NCBI GenBank assembly: GCA_947306475.1
Contig: CAMZGS010000001.1
Location: 186,001 to 250,000 of the forward strand
Source of the DNA: an uncultured Comamonas sp.
Lineage (GTDB): Bacteria; Pseudomonadota; Gammaproteobacteria; Burkholderiales; Burkholderiaceae_C
DNA: 64,000 bases
Direction of reading: 5' to 3'
In this document: piece by piece, positions 9,049-64,000 of the stretch
Layout of the letters: every line of letters starts with the position of its first letter
Numbering within the stretch: position 1 is the first letter of the stretch
The notes under the pieces: model-generated
Told to the model about the DNA's origin: nothing
Databases searched by the model: none
The model's input: the letters and a program-made list of their open reading frames with translations, nothing else
Translations under genes and position numbers: made by a program

Positions 9049-10539
9049 CTAGAAACGCGGCAGATCGGGGTGGCTGAGCTGGCCGCCGCGCACCAGCATC
9101 TTGCCGTACTCGGCGCAGCGGTTGAGCGTGGGGATGAGCTTGCCGGGGTTGAGCAGGCCGTCCGGGTCAAAGGCGGCCTTGAGGGCGAACATCTGCTCGT
9201 TTTCTGCGGTGGTGAACTGTGCACACATGCTGTTGAGCTTTTCCACGCCCACGCCGTGCTCGCCGGTGATGGTGCCGCCCATGGCCACGCTGGTCTCCAG
9301 GATCTCGGCGCCAAACAGTTCGCAGCGGCGCAGCTCGTCGGCGTTGTTGGCATCAAACAGGATCAGCGGGTGCAGGTTGCCGTCGCCCGCGTGAAAGACG
9401 TTGACGCAGCGCAGCTGGTATTTTTTCTCCATCTCCTGGATGGCCAGCAGGATGTCGGCCAGGCGCTTGCGCGGGATGGTCGAATCCATGCACATGTAGT
9501 CGGGGCTGATGCGCCCGCTGGCCGGAAAGGCGTTCTTGCGCCCGCTCCAGAAGCGCGCGCGCTCGTCCTCGCTTTGGCTCACCGTGATGGCGGTGGCGCC
9601 GGCGCCGCGCAGCACTTCGCTCATGCGGGCAATTTCTTCCTCCACCTCGGCCGGGGTGCCGTCGCTTTCGCACAGCAGGATGGCCTCGGCGTTCAGGTCG
9701 TAGCCGGCGTGGACAAAGTCTTCCACGGCGGCGGTCATGGGCTTGTCCATCATCTCCAGGCCGGCGGGGATGATGCCGGCGGCAATCACGGCGGCCACGG
9801 CATCACCGGCTTTGCGCACATCGTCAAAGCTGGCCATGATGCAGCGTGCCAGCTGCGGCTGGGGGATGAGCTTGACGGTCACTTCCGTGGCTACGGCCAG
9901 CATGCCTTCACTGCCCATGAGAATGGCCAGCAGGTCGTAGCCGGGGGTGTCCAGCGCATCGCTGCCAAATTCGATGGGTTCGCCGGCAACGGTAAAGCCC
10001 TTCACCTTGAGGATGTTGTGTACCGTAAGACCATATTTCAGGCAGTGCACGCCGCCGGAGTTTTCCGCCACATTGCCGCCGATGGTGCAGGCAATCTGGC
10101 TGCTCGGGTCGGGCGCGTAGTACAGGCCGTAGGGCGCAGCCGCCTCGCTGATGGCCAGGTTGCGCACGCCGCATTGCACCACGGCGGTGCGGCTGTGCGG
10201 ATCGAGCTTGAGGATCTGGTTGAACCTGGCCAGCGACAGCGTCACCCCCATGGCGTGCGGCATGGCGCCGCCCGACAGGCCCGTGCCCGCGCCGCGCGCC
10301 ACCACAGGCACCTTGAGCGCATGGCAGGTCTTGAGCACGGCCTGCACCTGTTCGTAGGTCTCGGGCAAGGCCACCACCAGGGGGCGCTGGCGGTAGGCAG
10401 TCAGGCCGTCGCACTCGTAGGGGGTGGTGTCTTCGGGCTGCCACAGCAGGGTGTGGGCAGGCAGGTGCTGGCTCAGGGCCTGCACCACTTCGGCCTGCCG
10501 TGCGGCACGTTCAGAGGGTTGTGGGGTGGCGGAGGTCAT
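9049..10539 (-). CDS. glcD: FAD-linked oxidase, GlcD family (glycolate/D-2-hydroxyacid oxidase subunit)
   Basis: The protein oxidises 2-hydroxyacids such as glycolate or D-lactate using FAD of the vanillyl-alcohol-oxidase fold. The product of 496 residues has the FAD-binding segment VPVVARGAGTGLSGGAMPHA near residues 77-96 and the PP-loop region DPSSQIACTIGGNVAENSGG. The C-terminal substrate domain carries the cofactor/metal motif FHAGDGNLHP and the end motif ITGEHGVGVEKL. The partners glcE and glcF are not adjacent, so it may act as a single-chain dehydrogenase or with distant partners. A LysR-type gene lies just upstream on the same strand. Confidence 0.93.
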   Translation of the reverse strand: MTSATPQPSERAARQAEVVQALSQHLPAHTLLWQPEDTTPYECDGLTAYRQRPLVVALPETYEQVQAVLKTCHALKVPVVARGAGTGLSGGAMPHAMGVTLSLARFNQILKLDPHSRTAVVQCGVRNLAISEAAAPYGLYYAPDPSSQIACTIGGNVAENSGGVHCLKYGLTVHNILKVKGFTVAGEPIEFGSDALDTPGYDLLAILMGSEGMLAVATEVTVKLIPQPQLARCIMASFDDVRKAGDAVAAVIAAGIIPAGLEMMDKPMTAAVEDFVHAGYDLNAEAILLCESDGTPAEVEEEIARMSEVLRGAGATAITVSQSEDERARFWSGRKNAFPASGRISPDYMCMDSTIPRKRLADILLAIQEMEKKYQLRCVNVFHAGDGNLHPLILFDANNADELRRCELFGAEILETSVAMGGTITGEHGVGVEKLNSMCAQFTTAENEQMFALKAAFDPDGLLNPGKLIPTLNRCAEYGKMLVRGGQLSHPDLPRF

Positions 10540-53160: not shown

Positions 53161-53182
53161 TCTTTTGAGGCAGGAGGTATTT

Positions 53183-55435
53183 GTGTCATCTACGCCTGCT
53201 TGGGCCCACTCTGGTGGGCACCTTCTGGAAGAGCATCTAAAAGCTGTTGCAACACTGGCCGCCGAGTTTTCAGCCGCTTTTGATAGTGCTGAGCCAACGC
53301 GGCGGTGGGCCTATTTGGCAGGCATGTGGCACGACTTGGGCAAATACCGACCTGGTTTTCAGCGCTATGTGCGTTTGCCCGAGGGAGAGGACGCACACAT
53401 TGAAGGCCGCGTATCTAGCAGGGAGAAGACCCACTCTGCCGCCGGTGCGCTGTGGGCCATGCAGAAACTCAACCAGCCCAATCGCCCCTTGGGCAACATC
53501 CTTGCCTACTTGATTGCAGGCCACCATGCCGGTCTGGGTGACTGGGATCAAGGCTTGAAAGAAAGGTTGGCTGAGACGTATGCACAGCAGGAGCTGAAGG
53601 AGGCGCTGGCTGCGCAGCCGCCTAGCGAGGTGCTTAACCACGTGCCTGGACCACCCTGCATTCCCGGTGGTGCTGATGGCTTTGCGCTGTGGGTGCGTAT
53701 GCTGTTTTCGTGCCTGGTGGACGCCGATTTTTTGGATACCGAAGCACACTTTGATGCAGGAAAGCCCGCTCATCGAGCGGGCTTTCCTGCGCTTGGGCAG
53801 ATGCGCCAGGCATTCGATGCGTACATGGCTGCGTTGCCCGTGGTCAACAGCCCTGTCAATACCCTGCGTGCAGACGTCCTGCGGCAGTGCCGTGCCAAGG
53901 CCGCTTTGCCGCCAGGCTTCTTTTCCTTGACCGTGCCTACTGGCGGTGGAAAAACCCTGTCCAGTCTGGCATTTGCTCTGGAGCATGCACAGGCCCATGG
54001 TAAGCGTCGTGTGATCTACGCCATTCCCTACACCAGCATCATCGAGCAGACGGCGGATGTGTTTCGTCGCGTATTTGCTGCGTTGGGAGAGGATGTACTG
54101 ATCGAGCACCACAGCCAAGCCGATGTAGCAGAAAAAGATGAAACGGCGCGCAGTCGCCTTGCCTGTGAGAACTGGGACGCTCCGCTGGTCGTCACCACCA
54201 ATGTGCAGTTGCTTGAGTCGCTGTTTGCTGCCAAAACTTCGCGCTGTCGCAAGCTGCACAACATTGTGGGCAGCATCATCGTGCTCGATGAAGCACAGCA
54301 ACTGCCACCGGAGTTCTTACAGCCCATTTTGGATGTGCTCAACCTGCTGGTGGCGCACTATGGCGTCACGGTGGTGCTTTGCACAGCGACCCAGCCAGCC
54401 TTGAGCAGTAGCGCGTATTTCGATAGCAGCAAGAATTTGCGTGGTCTTAAAAATGTGCGCGAAATCATGGACAACCCCGATGCCTTGTTTGCTGCGCTGG
54501 AGCGTGTGCGGGTGGAATTACCCAAGGATTGGCAGACCCCAACGCCTTGGGAAGAAATCGCTGCCCAGTTGTGCGCTGAGGATTGCGTGCTGGCCATCGT
54601 CAACACGCGCAAGGCTGCGCGTGAATTGCATCGCCTAATGCCTGAAGGAACCTTGCACCTGTCTGCACTGATGTGCGGCGCGCACCGCCAAGATGTGATT
54701 GCGCAGATCAAACAACGCTTGCAGGCTAAGCGAGATGGAAGCGATACCCGGCCCTTGCGTGTGGTGAGTACCCAGCTGGTGGAAGCGGGGGTGGATATTG
54801 ACTTTCCGGTGGTCTATCGCGCGATAGCTGGGCTTGACTCTCTGGCGCAGGCGGCAGGCCGCTGCAATCGTGAAGGCCGTTTGCCTGAAAAAGGGCGGGT
54901 CGTGGTGTTTGTGCCGCCTGATAAGGTGCCGCTTGGGCATTTGCGCAAAGCGGCCGATGCATGTGTGTCCACACTGCGCGGACAAGAACATGCGCCGCTA
55001 GCGCGTGCACTGTTTGAGCGTTATTTCAAGCAGCTCTATTACTCGGTGGATTTGGACAAGCATTCAGTTGTTGCCAAACTCAAGATGCAAAGAAATTGGA
55101 CTGTGCAGTTTGGCGAAGTTGCCAAGGTCTTCAAGCTCATTGATGACTCAGAACAGGCCACCGTAGTGGTGCGCTACGCCCCACACCATGAACTACTGCA
55201 AGAGCTGTTAGGCATTTTGACCACACAAGGCCCCCAGCGCTGGCTGATGCGCAAGCTGCAGCGCTACACCGTCAGTTTGCCGAAACGTAGGGCTGAGAAG
55301 ATGTTGTTACAAGGTGCATTGATACTGCCCATTCCGGGGCTGTATGTGCAGGTCGATGCAGACAACTTGTACAGCGACGTTTTGGGTTTGTTGGGTGATG
55401 ACGACCTCTACAACCCCAGTGGGTTTTTTGCATGA
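53183..55435 (+). CDS. cas3: CRISPR-associated helicase-nuclease Cas3, type I-C
   Basis: Cas3 unwinds and degrades target DNA after Cascade recognition. The product of 750 residues is an HD nuclease fused to an SF2 helicase: HD motif GMWHDLGKY at residue 50, GHHAGLGDW at 113-121, Walker A VPTGGGKT near 253, DEAQ in IIVLDEAQQLP near 370, motif III CTATQPA, and C-terminal helicase motifs STQLVEAGVDIDF and QAAGRCNREG. GTG at 53183 is chosen as start because AGGAGG lies 5 bases before it; a TTG six codons upstream lacks this. Base composition is visibly less GC-rich than pyrC. A perfect 16-bp hairpin sits inside the gene. Confidence 0.96.
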   Translation: MSSTPAWAHSGGHLLEEHLKAVATLAAEFSAAFDSAEPTRRWAYLAGMWHDLGKYRPGFQRYVRLPEGEDAHIEGRVSSREKTHSAAGALWAMQKLNQPNRPLGNILAYLIAGHHAGLGDWDQGLKERLAETYAQQELKEALAAQPPSEVLNHVPGPPCIPGGADGFALWVRMLFSCLVDADFLDTEAHFDAGKPAHRAGFPALGQMRQAFDAYMAALPVVNSPVNTLRADVLRQCRAKAALPPGFFSLTVPTGGGKTLSSLAFALEHAQAHGKRRVIYAIPYTSIIEQTADVFRRVFAALGEDVLIEHHSQADVAEKDETARSRLACENWDAPLVVTTNVQLLESLFAAKTSRCRKLHNIVGSIIVLDEAQQLPPEFLQPILDVLNLLVAHYGVTVVLCTATQPALSSSAYFDSSKNLRGLKNVREIMDNPDALFAALERVRVELPKDWQTPTPWEEIAAQLCAEDCVLAIVNTRKAARELHRLMPEGTLHLSALMCGAHRQDVIAQIKQRLQAKRDGSDTRPLRVVSTQLVEAGVDIDFPVVYRAIAGLDSLAQAAGRCNREGRLPEKGRVVVFVPPDKVPLGHLRKAADACVSTLRGQEHAPLARALFERYFKQLYYSVDLDKHSVVAKLKMQRNWTVQFGEVAKVFKLIDDSEQATVVVRYAPHHELLQELLGILTTQGPQRWLMRKLQRYTVSLPKRRAEKMLLQGALILPIPGLYVQVDADNLYSDVLGLLGDDDLYNPSGFFA
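53756..53790 (+). other. Perfect 16-bp hairpin inside cas3
   Basis: GCAGGAAAGCCCGCTC and its exact complement GAGCGGGCTTTCCTGC flank the 3-base loop ATC. It encodes residues near 192-203 (AGKPAHRAGFPA) between the HD and helicase domains. No T run follows. Confidence 0.85.
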
Positions 55436-55444
55436 AGGAGTGGC

Positions 55445-56101
55445 ATGACTTTGCGCTTTTGTCTTGAAGTGGCAGGCCCTTTTGCCTGCTTTACCCGCCC
55501 GGAGATGAAGGTGGAGCGCGTCTCGTACGACGTGATGACCCCTTCGGCAGCACGTGCGGTATTCGAGTCCATTTTGTGGAAGCCTGCCATCCGCTGGCGT
55601 GTGCAGCGCATTGAAGTGCTCAAGCCCATTCGCTTTATCAACCTGCGGCGCAATGAAGTCAGCGCCGTGGTCTCCACGCGCAATGTGCAGCAGGCGATGA
55701 AGGCTGGTCATGGCCAGCTGGCCTTGTACATAGAGGAAGAGCGCCAGCAGCGCGCGGGCTACTTTCTGCGCGATGTGGCCTACCGCATTCATGCCGACTT
55801 GGCACTGGCACCAGGGGTTGTCGAGCCACTGACCAAGTACAGCGAAATGTTTGCCCGCCGTGCCCGTAAAGGCCAGTGTGTGAACCAGCCCTACCTGGGC
55901 TGCCGCGAGTTTGCTGCTGACTTCCGTTTGGTTACTGCCGAGACGCCCCCGACTTCACCCATTGAGGACACGCGCGAACTGGGCTGGATGCTGCACGACC
56001 TGGATTTTTCGAACCCCGCTGACCCGCAGCCGCGCTTTTTCAACGCCAAGATGGAGCGTGGTGTGGTGCAAGTGCCACCGTTTGAGGAGGGACGCGGATG
56101 A
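55445..56101 (+). CDS. cas5c: Type I-C Cas5 (Cas5c, crRNA-processing nuclease)
   Basis: In type I-C systems Cas5c replaces Cas6: it cuts the repeat RNA and stays bound to the 5' handle. The product of 218 residues begins MTLRFCLEVAGPFACFTRPE. It has the RAMP-type start, the stretch ERVSYDVMTPSAARAVFESI near residue 20-40 and the C-terminal LGWMLHDLDFSNPADPQPRF and FFNAKMERGVVQVP of the Csd1-linked Cas5 family. It starts 9 bases after cas3 with AAGGAG before it, and overlaps cas8c by four bases (ATGA). Confidence 0.96.
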   Translation: MTLRFCLEVAGPFACFTRPEMKVERVSYDVMTPSAARAVFESILWKPAIRWRVQRIEVLKPIRFINLRRNEVSAVVSTRNVQQAMKAGHGQLALYIEEERQQRAGYFLRDVAYRIHADLALAPGVVEPLTKYSEMFARRARKGQCVNQPYLGCREFAADFRLVTAETPPTSPIEDTRELGWMLHDLDFSNPADPQPRFFNAKMERGVVQVPPFEEGRG

Positions 56102-57855
56102 TTTTGAGATCGTTGGTTGATTACTACGAGCGGTGCCAAGAACTGCCGCGTGAGGGGTGGATACGCCGGGGAATTGACTATGAACTGGTACTTAGCACGC
56201 AAGGTGACTGTGTTGGTATCAATGCCCTCGGGGATAGTCGGAAAGGAAAGATTGTTCCCGCTGAACGCCTCGTAACTGCGATTGGCAAGCAGGCACTCAA
56301 GCATACCAACAGCGGTAAGGATGCCAACTTGCTATGGGACAACGCTGGGTTTGTGCTTGGGATAGGTAACAAAGGGCAAAACAAGTTAGCCAGTTTTATA
56401 AAAACACTACAGGATTGGCTGGGAGCGATCGATGACTCTGGGGTTCAAGCTATCCATCGGTTTTGTCTACAGCTACAAAAAGATGCCGCGTTGGCGAATC
56501 GCCTCATTGAACGCTTCGGCTACCGAGCCGATTTCGAAAAGCGTGACCCAGTACTGACATTCCGACTCCAAGGTGACATAGAAAGCGTTCATGAGCGCCC
56601 CATGGTGCGCAGGGCCTATGCAGAGGTGTTCGCTGAAATGCAAGGGGGCGGTGCGCGCGGAAACTGCCTCATTACCGGCGCGGTGAGTGTTCCTATCTCG
56701 CTCACCGAAACAGTCATCAAAGGTGTGTGGGACAAACCTGGCGCGATTCCGCTAAAAAACATCGTCTCGTTTAACGAGCGCGCTTTCGAGTCCTACGGCA
56801 AAACCAAGCGTCAAGGCGAAAACGCCCCGGTCAGCCGTGCTGCCGCCTTTGCCTACACCACCGCACTGAACCACCTGTTGCGCCAAGACTCGCCCCAACG
56901 TATGCAGGTGGGCGATGCCTCCACCGTGTTTTGGGCAGATAAGCAAGATCCGATTGAAGAGAGTTTTGGAGTCATCTTTGGTGATGATCCTGACGAAAGC
57001 ACCCGCGCGGTGCAGGCACTGCTGCAAGCCGTACACAGTGGTAAATGGGGGCAGTCTGACGAGCACCTGCGCTTTTACGTGCTGGGCTTGGCACCGAACG
57101 CAGCGCGCATCAGCGTCCGCTTTTTTCACTGTGTCACTTTGCGCGAACTGGGCCAACGCATCGCCCAGCATTTCGAGGATTTGGCATTGGTGCGAGGCCC
57201 GCACGATGCGCAGTACCCATCTTTGTTTCGGCTATTGACGGCTGTGGCGCTGCAAAACAAGGCCGACAACATTCCCCCCAACCTGGGCGGAGCCATCGTG
57301 GATGCCATTTTTTCTGGTCCCAATGTGCCTTATCCCGCACTGTGGCTGAACGCCGCCATCACTCGCTGCCGTGCTGAGCAAAACGTCACCTACTTGCGTA
57401 CAGCCGCTATCAAGGCATGCCTCAATCGTCAAATTCGTTTTCGCCAAAGCAAAGAAAAGGAGTTTTTGCCCATGCTGGACCCCGATAACCAAAACATTGC
57501 CTATCGGTTGGGGCGGCTCTTCGCGGTACTGGAAAAAATTCAGGAAGAAGCCAGCCCCGAGCTGAATGCCACCATTCGAGACCGTTACTACGGCGCAGCA
57601 TCCAGCACGCCAGTAGCGGTGTTCACCACCTTGCTGCGCCTAAAAAATGCCCATCTCAAGAAACTGGCAGCAGGGCGTGTGGTTTGGTTTGAAAGGCTGT
57701 TGGGTGAAGTGCTGGGCCCGGTAAGCGATTTTCCCAAGCATTTGCCATTACCTGACCAGGGCCGCTTCGCATTAGGCTATTACCACCAGCGTCAGGACCT
57801 TTTCACCCGCAAAGCCAAAGACACACCAGATACCAATGAAGGAGAAAACGTATGA
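56098..57855 (+). CDS. cas8c: Type I-C Cas8 (Cas8c/Csd1), Cascade large subunit
   Basis: Cas8c recognises the protospacer-adjacent motif in the I-C Cascade and its mRNA can also yield the small subunit from an internal start. The product of 585 residues starts [20 protein letters not shown], the family N-terminus, and contains [40 protein letters not shown] and a final [14 protein letters not shown] typical of Csd1. It overlaps cas5c at the start and cas7c at the end by four bases each, so translation is coupled. A possible internal start for a Cas11-like small subunit was not pinned down. Confidence 0.96.
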
Positions 57856-58853
57856 GCGCAGCTACCCAAGCACTGGCCAATCGCTACGACTTTGTGCTGA
57901 TTTTTGACGTTAAAGACGGCAACCCCAACGGCGACCCCGATGCGGGCAATCTGCCACGCTTGGATGCCGAGTCTGGCCATGGTTTGGTGACAGACGTCTC
58001 ACTCAAGCGCAAGGTACGCAACTTTGTTGGATTGGTGAAAGAACAGGACGCACGCCCCCCAGCGGATGGCGAAAAGCGCTTTGAAATCTACGTGCGCGAA
58101 AAAGCCGTTCTCAACTTGCAGCATGAGCGCGCATATTCAGCATTAAATCTGGCTGTGGCGCCCGCAGATCAAGCGCTGGAAGCTACAGAAGAAGTAGCAA
58201 AAGAAACAAAGAAGAAAAAAACTGCCAAGGAAAAGCGCAAAGGCAGCGCCGATGAAGTGGAGTTGGCCCGCCGCTGGATGTGCCAGAACTTTTTTGATGT
58301 GCGTACCTTTGGGGCGGTTATGACTCTTGGCGTGAACTGTGGCCAGGTACGAGGTCCGGTGCAGCTCACCTTTGCTCGCTCGGTTGAGCCCGTCGTGGCG
58401 CTGGAGCATTCCATCACGCGTATGGCCGTAGCTACTGAAGCTGAGGCAGAAAAGCAGCAGGGTGATAACCGCACCATGGGCCGCAAGCACACGGTGCCCT
58501 ACGGTGTGTATGTGGCACATGGTTTTGTCTCCTCCTTCCTGGCCAAGCAAACCGGGTTTGGGCAAGATGACCTGGAATTGCTCTGGCAAGCATTGGGCCA
58601 AATGTTCGAGCACGACCGCTCGGCCGCTCGTGGCGAAATGTCCACACGTGGCCTGTATGTGTTCAAGCACGACAGTGAGCTGGGCAACGCCCCTGCTCAT
58701 GCACTGTTTGAGCGCCTGCAGATCTCGCCCAAGGAGCCTGGCAGTGTGGCGCGTAGCTTTGACGCCTACGCTGTCACATTTGATGGCCAAAGTCTGGCGG
58801 TTGGGCAATCCGTGCAGCCTGAAACTGGTGTGACGTTGACGCGGCTGTACTAA
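57852..58853 (+). CDS. cas7c: Type I-C Cas7 (Csd2), Cascade backbone
   Basis: Cas7 forms the helical backbone along the crRNA. The product of 333 residues begins with [20 protein letters not shown]. It has [20 protein letters not shown] and [20 protein letters not shown], then [30 protein letters not shown] and [20 protein letters not shown]. Between about residues 108 and 137 is a strongly charged Lys-rich stretch ([17 protein letters not shown]), probably a disordered surface loop. The ATGA overlap with cas8c couples the two; a gap of 82 bases follows before cas4. Confidence 0.97.
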
Positions 58854-58935
58854 TTGGGGGCGCAAGAATTGTTTCCTGCGAGCATCCGGCAGGGAGCAAT
58901 CTCTGGATTCCTGTTTGACCGGAGGGCGTGAAGCC

Positions 58936-59574
58936 ATGGAGACGTCGGATCCAATTGCCCTTTCGGCGTTGCAGCACTGGCAGTACTGTCCACGTCAATG
59001 CGGCTTGATTCACCTGGAACAGGTTTTTGACGATAACGTGCACACCTTGCGGGGGCAGGCGGTACATGCGCGTACCGACTGCCCTGGTGCAGTCCTTGAC
59101 AAAGGGGTGCGCGTGGAGCGTGCCCTGCCTTTGTGGCACGACGAGCTGGGGCTGGTGGGGAAATCGGACGTTGTGGAGTTTTTGCCAGATGGCACTCCCT
59201 ATCCGGTGGAATACAAGCACGGCAGTCGCAACAAAGCGGCTGACATTGCCGCTTGCGACGATTTGCAGTTGGCTGCGCAGGCGATGTGCCTGGAGCACAT
59301 GACGGGCAAGCTCGTGCCTGAAGGTGCGTTGTATTACGCACGCTCCAGACGCCGTAGAACCTTGGGCATTACGGCAGAGTTGCGTGCGCAGGTAGTTGAG
59401 ACGATACGGTCCATTCGTCAGATGCTCGATAGTGGTCAATTGCCACAGCCTTTGCTGGGAGAGCAGGCACAGCGTCGCTGCCGAGCCTGCTCGCTCCAGG
59501 AGCGTTGTCAGCCCCAGGCGACGCATAAGGTATTGGCACAAGCTAGAAAAAATCTTTTCGAACCGGATGCGTAG
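58936..59574 (+). CDS. cas4: CRISPR-associated exonuclease Cas4, type I-C
   Basis: Cas4 trims prespacers and ensures that spacers have the correct adjacent motif and orientation. The product of 212 residues has the Fe-S cysteines CPRQCGL near residue 17 and CRACSLQERC near the C-terminus. The RecB-type nuclease residues are Asp in VGKSDVVEFL and Glu-x-Lys in YPVEYKHGS. ATG 58936 has GGAGGG nine bases upstream; a TTG seven codons earlier is a less likely start. The 82-base gap after cas7c is the largest in the operon. Confidence 0.95.
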   Translation: METSDPIALSALQHWQYCPRQCGLIHLEQVFDDNVHTLRGQAVHARTDCPGAVLDKGVRVERALPLWHDELGLVGKSDVVEFLPDGTPYPVEYKHGSRNKAADIAACDDLQLAAQAMCLEHMTGKLVPEGALYYARSRRRRTLGITAELRAQVVETIRSIRQMLDSGQLPQPLLGEQAQRRCRACSLQERCQPQATHKVLAQARKNLFEPDA

Positions 59575-59603: not shown

Positions 59604-60632
59604 ATGCAGTTACTCAATACCCTTTATGTCACCTTGCCCGATGCATGGCTGCGCCTGGATAACGACACCTTGCGCGTAGAGGTTGAACGGGAAACGCGCT
59701 TGCGCGTGCCTCTGCATCATCTCAGCGCAGTGGTTTGTTTTGGTCACACCGGCTTGTCTGCGCCACTGATGCATCGGCTGGCTGACGAAGGCATCGCCTT
59801 GGTACTACTGGATGCCCAGGGGCGTTTCAAAGCGCGGCTGGAAGGCGCCGTCAGCGGCAATGTGTTGTTGAGACAAGCACAATTTCAGCGCGTGAACGAT
59901 CCGACTTTCACCCTGGATACAGCCCGTGCATGTGTAGCCGGAAAGATCAAAAACTCTCGCCAAGTTCTCCAGCGCGGTGCGCGTGAAGCCAAGGTGGAAG
60001 ATGAGGCCAAATATCTGTCCCGTTTGGCGGCAGACTTGGCAACCAGTTTACGGGATCTGCCCCAGGCGAACACATTGGATCAGATTCGGGGGATAGAAGG
60101 CGAGGCAGCGCGCCAATACTTCGGCGGACTGAATCTACTGTTGCGAGCTGATCAACGAGCTGCCTTCGCCATGAATGGGCGTACCCGTCGCCCACCACGC
60201 GATCGTTTCAACGCCTTGCTGTCATTTCTCTATGCCATGTGGATGAATGACTGTCGCAGCGCACTGGAGGCTGCAGGGCTTGATCCTCAGGCCGGCTTTT
60301 TGCATGCCTTACGCCCTGGCCGGGCGGCGTTGGCGCTGGATTTGATGGAAGAGTTTCGACCGTGGGCCGATCGTCTGGCGCTCACCTTGGTCAATCGCGG
60401 ACAAATCAAGGCCAACGACTTTGAAATACGCGAAGGCGGCGGAGTATCGTTGCAAACCGATGCTCGCAAGGTGGTGGTTGTCGCCTTTCAGGAGCGCAAG
60501 AAAGAGGAAGTTACACATCCGCTTTTGGCGCAGACACTGCCGCTGGGGCTGGTGCCTTTGGTCCAGGCCCGTTTGTTGGCACGAGCCATACGCGAAGACG
60601 CAGCACCTTATTTGCCCTTTGTCATCAAATAG
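59604..60632 (+). CDS. cas1: CRISPR-associated endonuclease Cas1, type I-C
   Basis: Cas1 is the integrase that inserts new spacers, acting with Cas2. The product of 342 residues begins [20 protein letters not shown]. The catalytic residues are visible: Glu in [13 protein letters not shown], His in [10 protein letters not shown] and Asp in [12 protein letters not shown]. It lies 29 bases after cas4 and 11 bases before cas2. Confidence 0.98.
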
Positions 60633-60643
60633 GGAGTGAGCGC

Positions 60644-60934
60644 ATGCTGGTACTGGTTTGCTACGACGTCAACACCGAAACAGCAGCGGGTCGTCGTCGC
60701 CTGCGTCGTGTGGCCAAAGTGTGTGAAAGCTCTGGCCAGCGCGTGCAAAAGTCCGTCTTTGAATGCCAACTGGACATTGCGCAGTTTGAAACTCTGGAGC
60801 GGCGTTTGTTAGCCGAGATCGACCCGGGCGCGGATTGTCTCCGTCTGTACCGTATGCCAGAGGCGCGTGGCTTTCAGGTGGTAGAGCATGGCCATTTCAA
60901 AGCTGTAGATTTTTCGGGTCCTTTGGTGCTTTAA
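60644..60934 (+). CDS. cas2: CRISPR-associated protein Cas2, type I-C
   Basis: Cas2 forms the dimeric core of the Cas1-Cas2 integration complex. The product of 96 residues has the ferredoxin-like start [20 protein letters not shown] with the conserved Asp at residue 8, then [20 protein letters not shown] and the C-terminal [20 protein letters not shown] precedes the start. It is the last cas gene; the leader and array follow. Confidence 0.98.
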
Positions 60935-61171
60935 GCCTGTTAAAAATCATTCATGCCGCTCACTGTAGCAGTGCCTACATGCTACAGTGGTGCCGCGCGT
61001 ACCTCCAGTGAGGTTACCTTCATAGGTGGGTTCGCGCGCCTTATAAGCCGTTGAAATAATTATGATTTTTCTGATGCCGGAACTTGAAAATTTCCAGCAT
61101 TCACTATTTTTTGTGACGTTCGCGCAATGTCCGGAAAAAGTGCAGGGAGGACAATGGCTTACAAATGAGGC
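60935..61171 (+). promoter_or_regulatory. CRISPR leader
   Basis: 237 bases between the cas2 stop and the first repeat. The distal half is AT-rich (ATAATTATGATTTTTC, TCACTATTTTTTGTG) as expected of a leader carrying the array promoter, though no clean -35/-10 pair can be named. Its position upstream of repeats ending in ATTGAAAC shows that new spacers enter at the left end of the array. Confidence 0.8.
60961..60989. promoter_or_regulatory. Perfect 10-bp inverted repeat between cas2 and the array
   Basis: CACTGTAGCA and TGCTACAGTG are exact complements 9 bases apart, starting 27 bases after the cas2 stop. An overlapping shorter pairing TGTAG / CTACA is also possible. It may be a transcript end or a protein-binding site; no T run follows. 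Confidence 0.6.
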
Positions 61172-64000
61172 GAATCACCCGCCAGTAATGGCGGGTGTGG
61201 ATTGAAACGAGCCGCGCAATGTCCTGATCCCGCGTGGCAAAGGAATCACCCGCCAGTAATGGCGGGTGTGGATTGAAACTCGTGACGTGGTGACCATTGC
61301 CGAAGGTGTGCATGGAATCACCCGCCAGTAATGGCGGGTGTGGATTGAAACGCTCAGGCTGCCGTAGGTGTACTCGCCGTGCTCATGAATCACCCGCCAG
61401 TAATGGCGGGTGTGGATTGAAACTTTCATGGCTCCAGTTATCGCCAGTCTCGCCGCGAATCACCCGCCAGTAATGGCGGGTGTGGATTGAAACCAGCAGC
61501 TCGACAACGCGGCGGTGCTCTGATGGCGAATCACCCGCCAGTAATGGCGGGTGTGGATTGAAACGCCCCGCAGGTGCAGGTGCTGCAAGACATCGAGGGA
61601 ATCACCCGCCAGTAATGGCGGGTGTGGATTGAAACTGAAGCGGCCGCAGCTGCGTCGGCAGCTCCTGAGCGAATCACCCGCCAGTAATGGCGGGTGTGGA
61701 TTGAAACCAGGCTGCAGGCGCTCAGAGCCAGTCTGCACCCGGAATCACCCGCCAGTAATGGCGGGTGTGGATTGAAACACCGGCCCCGGCTTTTTTGCAG
61801 GCGAAGCGCCGGAGAATCACCCGCCAGTAATGGCGGGTGTGGATTGAAACGATGGTCATATGCACCGGGTAATTGGCGCCGCGAGGGAATCACCCGCCAG
61901 TAATGGCGGGTGTGGATTGAAACTGTGCCCAGTGGCAACCAGCGCTCGGTGCAGCTGGAATCACCCGCCAGTAATGGCGGGTGTGGATTGAAACACCGTC
62001 GGTGCCGATCTCTGGCTTGCGCTCAATCGAATCACCCGCCAGTAATGGCGGGTGTGGATTGAAACATCACATGATCGTTATTTACGGCAAGCCTGCCGAT
62101 GAATCACCCGCCAGTAATGGCGGGTGTGGATTGAAACCCGTGCGCTTCGAGCGTGACGGCGGCAAGGCCGCGAATCACCCGCCAGTAATGGCGGGTGTGG
62201 ATTGAAACGTCCTCCAGCGCGAACAGGCTTCGGTCGGTCGCGGAATCACCCGCCAGTAATGGCGGGTGTGGATTGAAACTACGGGCTGCAAGTAAAGGCA
62301 GAGCGTGCCCGAGGAATCACCCGCCAGTAATGGCGGGTGTGGATTGAAACACCGTCGTGTGCTGCGTGACAGCCAGGTCAAACCAGGAATCACCCGCCAG
62401 TAATGGCGGGTGTGGATTGAAACCTTTTTCCCCAAGCATTGGCGACAGGGTTGCACAAGAATCACCCGCCAGTAATGGCGGGTGTGGATTGAAACATCAC
62501 ATGATCGTGATTTACGGAAAGCCCGACGAGAATCACCCGCCAGTAATGGCGGGTGTGGATTGAAACCGGCTGGGTGGAAGCTGGTGCCGGTTGAGCCGAC
62601 GAATCACCCGCCAGTAATGGCGGGTGTGGATTGAAACCCTCTATGGCCATTACCCCAATGCGGTGCGTCGTGAATCACCCGCCAGTAATGGCGGGTGTGG
62701 ATTGAAACACGTTGCACGAATCGTGGTCAACCCTCAAACGCTGAATCACCCGCCAGTAATGGCGGGTGTGGATTGAAACACCGACGATCAGGTGGTTATT
62801 TCGCGCGATGGCACTGAATCACCCGCCAGTAATGGCGGGTGTGGATTGAAACGTGGCTGGGCGACTGCTCGACGGCCACGTAAGTGGAATCACCCGCCAG
62901 TAATGGCGGGTGTGGATTGAAACAGGCCGGGGAGGAAAGGAGCGCAGCCGACAGGCTGAATCACCCGCCAGTAATGGCGGGTGTGGATTGAAACATGTGC
63001 TTGACCCGCACGCCGCCGTCCATCATTGAGGAATCACCCGCCAGTAATGGCGGGTGTGGATTGAAACCTGGGTTGCAAGCTGAAGGTTGCAAGTTGCATG
63101 CGAATCACCCGCCAGTAATGGCGGGTGTGGATTGAAACGATAGCAGGAAGATGTACTCATGCGCCTTGGTGCGAATCACCCGCCAGTAATGGCGGGTGTG
63201 GATTGAAACCTCCCAGACCTGCTCGGCTTGTGGCGCATTGCCCGGAATCACCCGCCAGTAATGGCGGGTGTGGATTGAAACATTTAGCTATCGGCTGGCC
63301 ACAGGGATCGTTCGCAGGGAATCACCCGCCAGTAATGGCGGGTGTGGATTGAAACCAGTCGCGCGATGTCTTGCGCCCGCGTGGCAAAGGAATCACCCGC
63401 CAGTAATGGCGGGTGTGGATTGAAACGCCATCAGTGCCGATCTCTGGCTTGCGCTCAATCTGAATCACCCGCCAGTAATGGCGGGTGTGGATTGAAACCA
63501 AATCTGGGCACGCCGTGCCAGCAACTTGCAGGAGAATCACCCGCCAGTAATGGCGGGTGTGGATTGAAACTGTGCGGGCAGTAATGGTGCTGCCTTCGCC
63601 CTCGAATCACCCGCCAGTAATGGCGGGTGTGGATTGAAACACGATCAGTGACGCCAGCCGGGACGTGCTGTATCGAATCACCCGCCAGTAATGGCGGGTG
63701 TGGATTGAAACAATCGCCACCAGCATGGTTTAGCCGCCCGAAGCTGAATCACCCGCCAGTAATGGCGGGTGTGGATTGAAACACCACCGGCGAAAGCAAG
63801 GTGGAGACCCACTACAGAATCACCCGCCAGTAATGGCGGGTGTGGATTGAAACCAGCGCGGCCTCTGCTTCTTCCAGCGCAGCACGTAGAATCACCCGCC
63901 AGTAATGGCGGGTGTGGATTGAAACTCCTTGGCGTTGATAACAATCTGGAGAGGTTTGAAGAATCACCCGCCAGTAATGGCGGGTGTGGATTGAAACCTT
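61172..64000 (+). CRISPR. Type I-C CRISPR array, 40 visible repeats, continues past window
   Basis: Forty copies of an identical 37-base repeat begin at 61172, 61243, 61315 and so on to 63961, separated by 39 complete spacers of 33-37 bases (mostly 34-35). The repeat starts GAATCACCCGCC, has an 8-bp stem CACCCGCC / GGCGGGTG around loop AGTAAT, and ends in the 11-base handle TGGATTGAAAC expected after Cas5c cleavage. No repeat carries a visible mutation, and the array still continues at the right edge, so its true length is larger. Three spacer pairs are near-duplicates: 1 and 31, 12 and 32, 13 and 19. The array lies downstream of cas2 and its leader. Confidence 0.99.

Follow-up and report, generated by a model that had tools for sequence, protein, structure and literature searches.

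The type I-C CRISPR array that starts close to the end of the analysed window, a stretch of 64,000 nucleotides from an uncultured Comamonas sp., contains groups of near-identical spacers, and each of these groups very probably arose because one TTC-flanked protospacer was acquired separately, by the type I-C machinery, from different phages belonging to diverged lineages. The comparisons described below show that the members of the groups are separate captures and not copies of one another, and coding homologues with an adjoining TTC were found for two of the four groups.

The array lies next to a type I-C effector set (cas5c, cas8c and cas7c together with cas3) and is adjoined by the adaptation genes cas1c, cas2 and cas4. 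The features of the locus are:

53165..55435, + strand: cas3 (HD nuclease-helicase), NCBIfam cas3_HD 5e-29 and cas3_core 2e-30, both above the cut-off
55445..56101, + strand: cas5c, TIGR01876, above the curated cut-off
56098..57855, + strand: cas8c/csd1, TIGR01863 5e-149
57852..58853, + strand: cas7c/csd2, TIGR02589 2e-120
58915..59574, + strand: cas4, TIGR00372 4e-33
59604..60632, + strand: cas1c, TIGR03640 4e-147
60644..60934, + strand: cas2, TIGR01573 5e-17
60935..61171, + strand: leader side of the array, between cas2 and the first repeat, assigned by position, the opposite end being the degenerate repeat
61172..64000, + strand: type I-C CRISPR array, repeats 1-40 of 93, running beyond the window to coordinate 67789

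The full array consists of 93 repeats and 92 spacers and is cut by the window edge, with 39 spacers lying wholly inside. Ninety repeats are exact, one has a substitution, one a one-base deletion and one is a degenerate terminal copy. Since the latter lies at the far end, the cas side was taken as the young end of the array.

An all-against-all comparison of the spacers, performed at first with 91 entries (79a and 79b joined), on both strands and with shifts up to 4, and then redone with 92 spacers and larger shifts, recovered the same four same-register groups: A (spacers 1/31), B (12/32), C (13/19/43) and D (40/46). The initial annotation had reported three of these pairs from the window, and every coordinate and identity (28/34, 31/34 and 30/34) was reproduced, all at offset 0. 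Spacers 43 and 46 and nearly all of spacer 40 lie beyond the window. The group members are:

61209..61242, + strand: spacer 1 (group A), FATRDQDIARL on the other strand; 28/34 to spacer 31 and 27/34 to a TTC-flanked phage site
63356..63389, + strand: spacer 31 (group A), 28/34 to spacer 1
61995..62028, + strand: spacer 12 (group B), IERKPEIGTDG on the other strand; 31/34 to spacer 32
63427..63461, + strand: spacer 32 (group B), differing from spacer 12 at positions 1, 4 and 7
62066..62100, + strand: spacer 13 (group C), MIVIYGKPAD; 30/34 to spacer 19
62496..62529, + strand: spacer 19 (group C), 30/34 to spacer 13 and 29/34 to spacer 43
64213-64247, beyond the window: spacer 43 (group C), 34/35 to spacer 13
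63998..64000, + strand: the opening three bases of spacer 40 (group D), which encodes FVPVPADPGAG of a phage head protease-capsid gene
64427-64460, beyond the window: spacer 46 (group D), 28/34 to spacer 40

The members of a pair are separated by 6 to 30 spacers. Below the groups, the best remaining similarity amounted to 22 bases (76/85) and the following one to 21; two weaker relations, 76/85 (22/35, a common start-codon region) and 38/42 (an exact 17-base overlap at shift 18), were kept out of the counts. A fixed-register peptide comparison of all spacers revealed no further pairs, the next score being 30 against at most 29 in shifted controls.

The differences within the groups follow the codons. 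For 1/31, 12/32, 13/19 and 40/46, 17 of the 19 differences keep to a single codon phase within their pair, a clustering that was reached by 2 of 200000 random placements, and 15 of the 17 changed complete codons are synonymous, which upholds the earlier claim that the differences are nearly all third-position and synonymous. The reading frame is backed independently by homologous phage ORFs for 1/31 and 40/46 and was fitted for 12/32 and 13/19.

The group D site falls within a gene that fuses a head protease to the major capsid protein (phrog_4523). A homologue with an adjoining TTC is present in contig L103 (30/35 and 27/34), and another, in a prophage of the same genus (L066/L075), matches at 26/35 and is flanked by CTC instead of TTC. 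Among 68 viral loci, which were chosen by a relaxed pattern of the group D peptide, the site is present in 30, with TTC in 9 of those 30. Counting the best hit of each spacer in each of the 68 loci, there were 144 hits, 63 of them with TTC, and none came from decoys. The phage family to which group D belongs (F1) was matched at 74% or more by twelve spacers (3, 28, 33, 40, 41, 46, 49, 57, 58, 65, 77 and 79a) and, with weaker support, by spacers 16 and 71. The target genes read as capsid, portal, terminase and methyltransferase, the capsid being the only one tested against protein families, and TTC is not universal at F1 sites (1/15 viral sites for spacer 33 and 0/11 for spacer 58).

The site of group A was assigned to prophage L104, where spacers 1 and 31 each match at 27/34 next to a TTC. 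The peptide at this site, FATRQQDIARL, agrees at 10/11 residues, and the gene encodes a 1198-aa protein (phrog_6128, function unknown). Spacer 9 matches the same prophage at 30/35 with TTC, about four kb from the group A site. A 27/34 match alone is within chance across 53 genomes, as it is equalled, with TTC, by a gene of genome G440 that we take for chromosomal; L104 was preferred because of the frame, the 10/11 residues, the phage context and the nearby spacer 9. The matches of spacer 1 across the order (L132-L134) and the one in G440 (L105, L125) were rejected as chance, lacking TTC or lying in a presumed chromosomal gene. Using a 147-residue piece as query, no relatives of the group A protein were detected in the viral contigs; the phage records contained 28 relatives with less than 60% identity, and the group A site was absent in both of the two examined. 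In a relative of the same genus (G428), spacer 13 of array L138 matches another place of the same 1198-residue gene at 31/35, without TTC.

No phage or plasmid matching any group member near-perfectly was found among the viral contigs, genomes, phages and plasmids searched. Eight group spacers (43 omitted) gave a single weak record among 72556 plasmids (spacer 40, 26/28) and a single weak one among 50697 phages, namely 30/35 between spacer 40 and positions 10009-10043 of the Synechococcus phage MinM1 (ON981384.1:10009-10043), a phage of an unrelated host in which, perhaps, the same capsid-protease motif is matched. Groups B and C had no target in any collection searched. In the viral contigs, strict peptide patterns for A, B and D yielded 0 loci, relaxed ones yielded a single locus for B and nine for A, none of them matched at 74% or more by the spacers concerned, and a degenerate MIVIYGKP pattern yielded 9 loci with no spacer match at E 0.01; scans of the genome contigs for B and C gave 0. 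A family-wide pattern for group C occurred in 3 genomes besides the source genome among 299, and the best of these, the one examined closely, is antisense to another ORF. The initial annotation had expected each member of a pair to match a different homologue of one gene with a TTC-like motif beside it: a third, diverged homologue with TTC was indeed found for 1/31 and 40/46, no member matched a source of its own, and for 12/32 and 13/19 the spacer searches of phage, plasmid, viral and genome sequences gave no target.

The remaining spacers of the array document its targets more broadly. Six target regions received 33 spacer hits at 74% or more and none from reversed decoys, and TTC stands beside 22 of the 33 (about 1% expected), some of these hits being homologous copies of one site. 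For perfectly matched spacers whose flank was read (5, 14, 15, 54, 64, 66 and 82), TTC was present in 7/7. Three of them lie in the window:

61494..61527, + strand: spacer 5, perfect to a plasmid traL/traM junction, the TTC being read in a genome contig
62138..62242, + strand: spacers 14 and 15 with the intervening repeat, both perfect and with TTC, to one Variovorax conjugative plasmid

Since spacers 5, 14 and 15 match conjugative plasmids perfectly, the array records plasmids too; those carrying the traL/traM target of spacer 5 are presumably IncP-1. Spacer 20, extended by one repeat base, matches at 33/35 Pseudomonas phages such as JBD25, which we take to be Mu-like. The idea that the pairs derive from relatives of one mobile element is wrong, as 1/31 and 40/46 match different prophages and other spacers match conjugative plasmids and other phages. 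The proposed grouping of capture events was not supported: among the 14 F1 spacers there were 2 adjacencies where 1.98 would be expected, no adjacency was seen among the 8 spacers related to contig C13 of the source genome, and no clustering of F1 and F3 spacers was found in the array.

Four spacers beyond the window (54, 64, 66 and 82) are perfect to the source genome itself with TTC adjoining, at sites on contig C13 (L080:753, 6566 and 7715) and contig C5 (L143:12858). Two of these sites are in or at prophage integrase and excisionase genes, one is upstream on the same contig and one is near a phage major head gene. Such perfect self-targets despite complete-looking cas genes may mean that interference is off or that a prophage-borne inhibitor is at work; no anti-CRISPR family in PHROGs was matched by ten ORFs (66 to 198 residues) near the self-targeted sites.

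In order to place the groups in context, other type I-C arrays were surveyed. Survey set 1 was drawn from 50 genomes with Cas1c, including the source genome and G219, and 40 of the other 48 regions were taken (seven regions at contig ends and one more were omitted); a script found an array in 34 of the 40, one of which gave no spacers. Three arrays of the same genus were added (one read in part, 14 spacers), along with a replicate of 18 arrays from 20 of 41 further genomes with 792 spacers, giving a total of 54 other arrays, 2454 spacers and 74662 within-array pairs. These contained 12 near-identical pairs at 78% or more, all at offset 0 in a comparison that permitted shifts of two bases, and removal of one pair belonging to a duplicated block (L259 50/72) left 11 for the counts; survey set 1 contributed 11 near-identical pairs, from 7 arrays. 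With 6/4186 near-identical pairs against 11/74662 elsewhere (P 0.0002; P 0.007 if the four groups only are counted), the source array is enriched in such pairs. Its synonymous pattern is not general among the pairs of the other arrays: of their three pairs with three differences one is single-phase (L240 2/42) and two are not. Only one similar pair in the survey was out of register, L240 36/40 (shift 4, 26/30), and it is possibly a slipped capture. Block duplications were also seen, in L230 (14-18 identical to 35-39) and in L259 (52-56 identical to 74-78, within a block 50-56, 72-78), the latter with one later point change (50/72) and with a spacer 73 that is unlike 51 and nearly matches 26.

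The positions of the differences were then considered in relation to the type I seed, which comprises the PAM-proximal positions 1-5, 7 and 8. Nine pairs differ at one or two positions (all arrays, block pair removed and 13/43 included), and 10 of their 12 differences fall in the seed against 2.4 expected (P <1e-4). This bias was first noticed in survey set 1 and is mostly post hoc; the share was 10/13 with the block pair kept, 8/10 without position 1 and 9/11 without the source-array pair. The pairs with three or more differences, which include four of the five independent pairs of the source array, have 7/28 in the seed (expected 5.8) and so are not biased towards it; 12/32 alone has all three in the seed (P 0.006 by itself). 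A prediction was written before the replicate, which contained one near pair among its 792 spacers, with both differences in the seed (positions 3 and 4); the unequal length that had also been predicted was not borne out, this single pair being equal in length. In the source array, then, the main pattern is capture from diverged relatives; in the other arrays it looks, on the evidence of nine pairs, like capture of escape variants. Both fit one mechanism.

In such a mechanism a related phage would enter, the old spacer would match it imperfectly, and the relative would survive long enough for the adaptation machinery (Cas1, Cas2 and Cas4) to sample it; the same TTC site would be captured again and the new spacer added at the leader end. 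TTC would fix the start of the spacer, with the length at the far end varying by about one base, which would give the common register, and slowly changing phage proteins would make the lineages differ mainly at third codon positions, which would give the synonymous pattern. Presumably the relative got past the old spacer because of its mismatches, and that spacer possibly also primed the new capture. A seed bias is what recapture of the site of an escaping seed mutant would give. As a tentative but serious proposal, near-identical type I pairs may be a fossil record of refresh in place, in which a phage escapes through a change in the seed and the altered version of that very protospacer is then captured. 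The old spacer might prime this second capture, or the escaping phage might live long enough for its DNA to be sampled. No open-licence title or abstract opening was found that describes seed-biased near-identical spacer pairs, which is weak evidence of absence.

Another possibility, rather doubtful and yet worth weighing, is that the captures were separate and simply re-used PAM sites by chance in phages met repeatedly, with no role for escape or priming. Re-use of one site has a precedent in type I-C primed adaptation of Legionella pneumophila, where 2 of 23 independently acquired spacers fell on the same plasmid protospacer (PMC5071653). With about 22 TTC sites per kb, a single 40-kb family supplying nearly all 92 spacers would by our estimate produce several coincidences. 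The source-array pairs that differ at three or more positions are, taken together, not biased towards the seed. For the families as they were found, however, the expectation, estimated assuming 40 kb, is about 0.1 coincidences for F1 (14 spacers) and about 0.01 for F2 (4 spacers), against one seen in each, and the seed bias found over all arrays in pairs with few differences is not predicted by chance re-use.

Duplication of a repeat-spacer unit within the array followed by point mutation is very unlikely to account for the groups. Exact duplicates do exist in I-C arrays, mostly of equal length and some as blocks (L230, L259), and the near pair L259 50/72 belongs to such a block, with the same shift and an identical neighbour two places on. 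The repeats of the source array, however, change too slowly for this: its 92 non-terminal repeats carry 2 changes, from which 0.16 differences are predicted over the four pairs, and 19 were seen, with a synonymous bias. Selection on the repeats could slow their change, in our judgement hardly a hundredfold. No similarity was found between the spacers neighbouring the five source-array pairs tested (19/43 omitted), nor in the other arrays' pairs except for L259 50/72. Lengths are unequal in 12/32, 13/19 and 40/46 and equal, as a copy would be, in 1/31 and 13/43. Over all arrays, 4 of 17 near-identical pairs (block pair removed, six source-array pairs included) are equal in length against 29 of 34 exact duplicates (P 2e-5), random pairs being equal in 38% of cases in the source array and 29% in the others, suggesting that near pairs are separate integrations and that the exact ones are mostly array duplications. 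Duplication is thus refuted for the set of groups, while 13/43 alone (one difference, equal length) could be a copy. The initial annotation was right to set aside copying errors within the array; its own proposal of independent capture from diverged relatives is backed by the synonymous differences, the slow repeats, the unduplicated neighbours and the third homologues with TTC for 1/31 and 40/46, and fell short in that the source phages were not found. That paralogous genes of one phage genome were captured in a single infection is least credible of all, given that the group D site was hit once per listed locus (many loci being partial) and that pair members lie 6 to 30 spacers apart.

Group C, read from its oldest member to its youngest, runs 43, 19, 13, with 43 and 13 one base apart and 19 more distant, which suggests co-circulating lineages rather than one steadily changing lineage. 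If the groups are recaptures of one site, a single genome holds earlier and later versions of phage targets, from which the positions of escape and the succession of co-circulating lineages could be worked out with no phage at hand. The seed bias, if it holds at scale, would make type I recapture of an escaped site testable from existing genomes and, if refresh is true, arrays would be a direct, chronological log of past escape mutations at the level of single bases.

Repeat capture from diverged phages is ordinary CRISPR biology, here unusually clear, and it hints that bacteria refresh a memory once a phage changes under it. Like the Comamonas array, the Legionella pneumophila system shows repeated capture of the same protospacer, there in an experiment, with the spacers of many strains converging on one recurrent element (PMC5071653); whereas Legionella captures from one plasmid, the Comamonas versions differ at synonymous sites, so that these spacers would come from different relatives. 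In the pink berry consortium, the accessible part of the report describes four Thiohalocapsa spacers that align imperfectly to two protospacers of one phage and, in Thiohalocapsa and Desulfofustis, a conserved capsid gene that is targeted repeatedly, as it is here, and makes no mention of codon phase or seed position (PMC10370329). Compared with type I-C systems in general, the locus is alike in its complete cas3-cas5c-cas8c-cas7c-cas4-cas1c-cas2 order, in the repeat end GTGGATTGAAAC and in the TTC located 5′ of the protospacers, which is described as the more canonical I-C PAM (PMC8482600). No structural difference from these systems was noted, and the array stands out by carrying more near-identical spacer pairs than the 54 other arrays predict.
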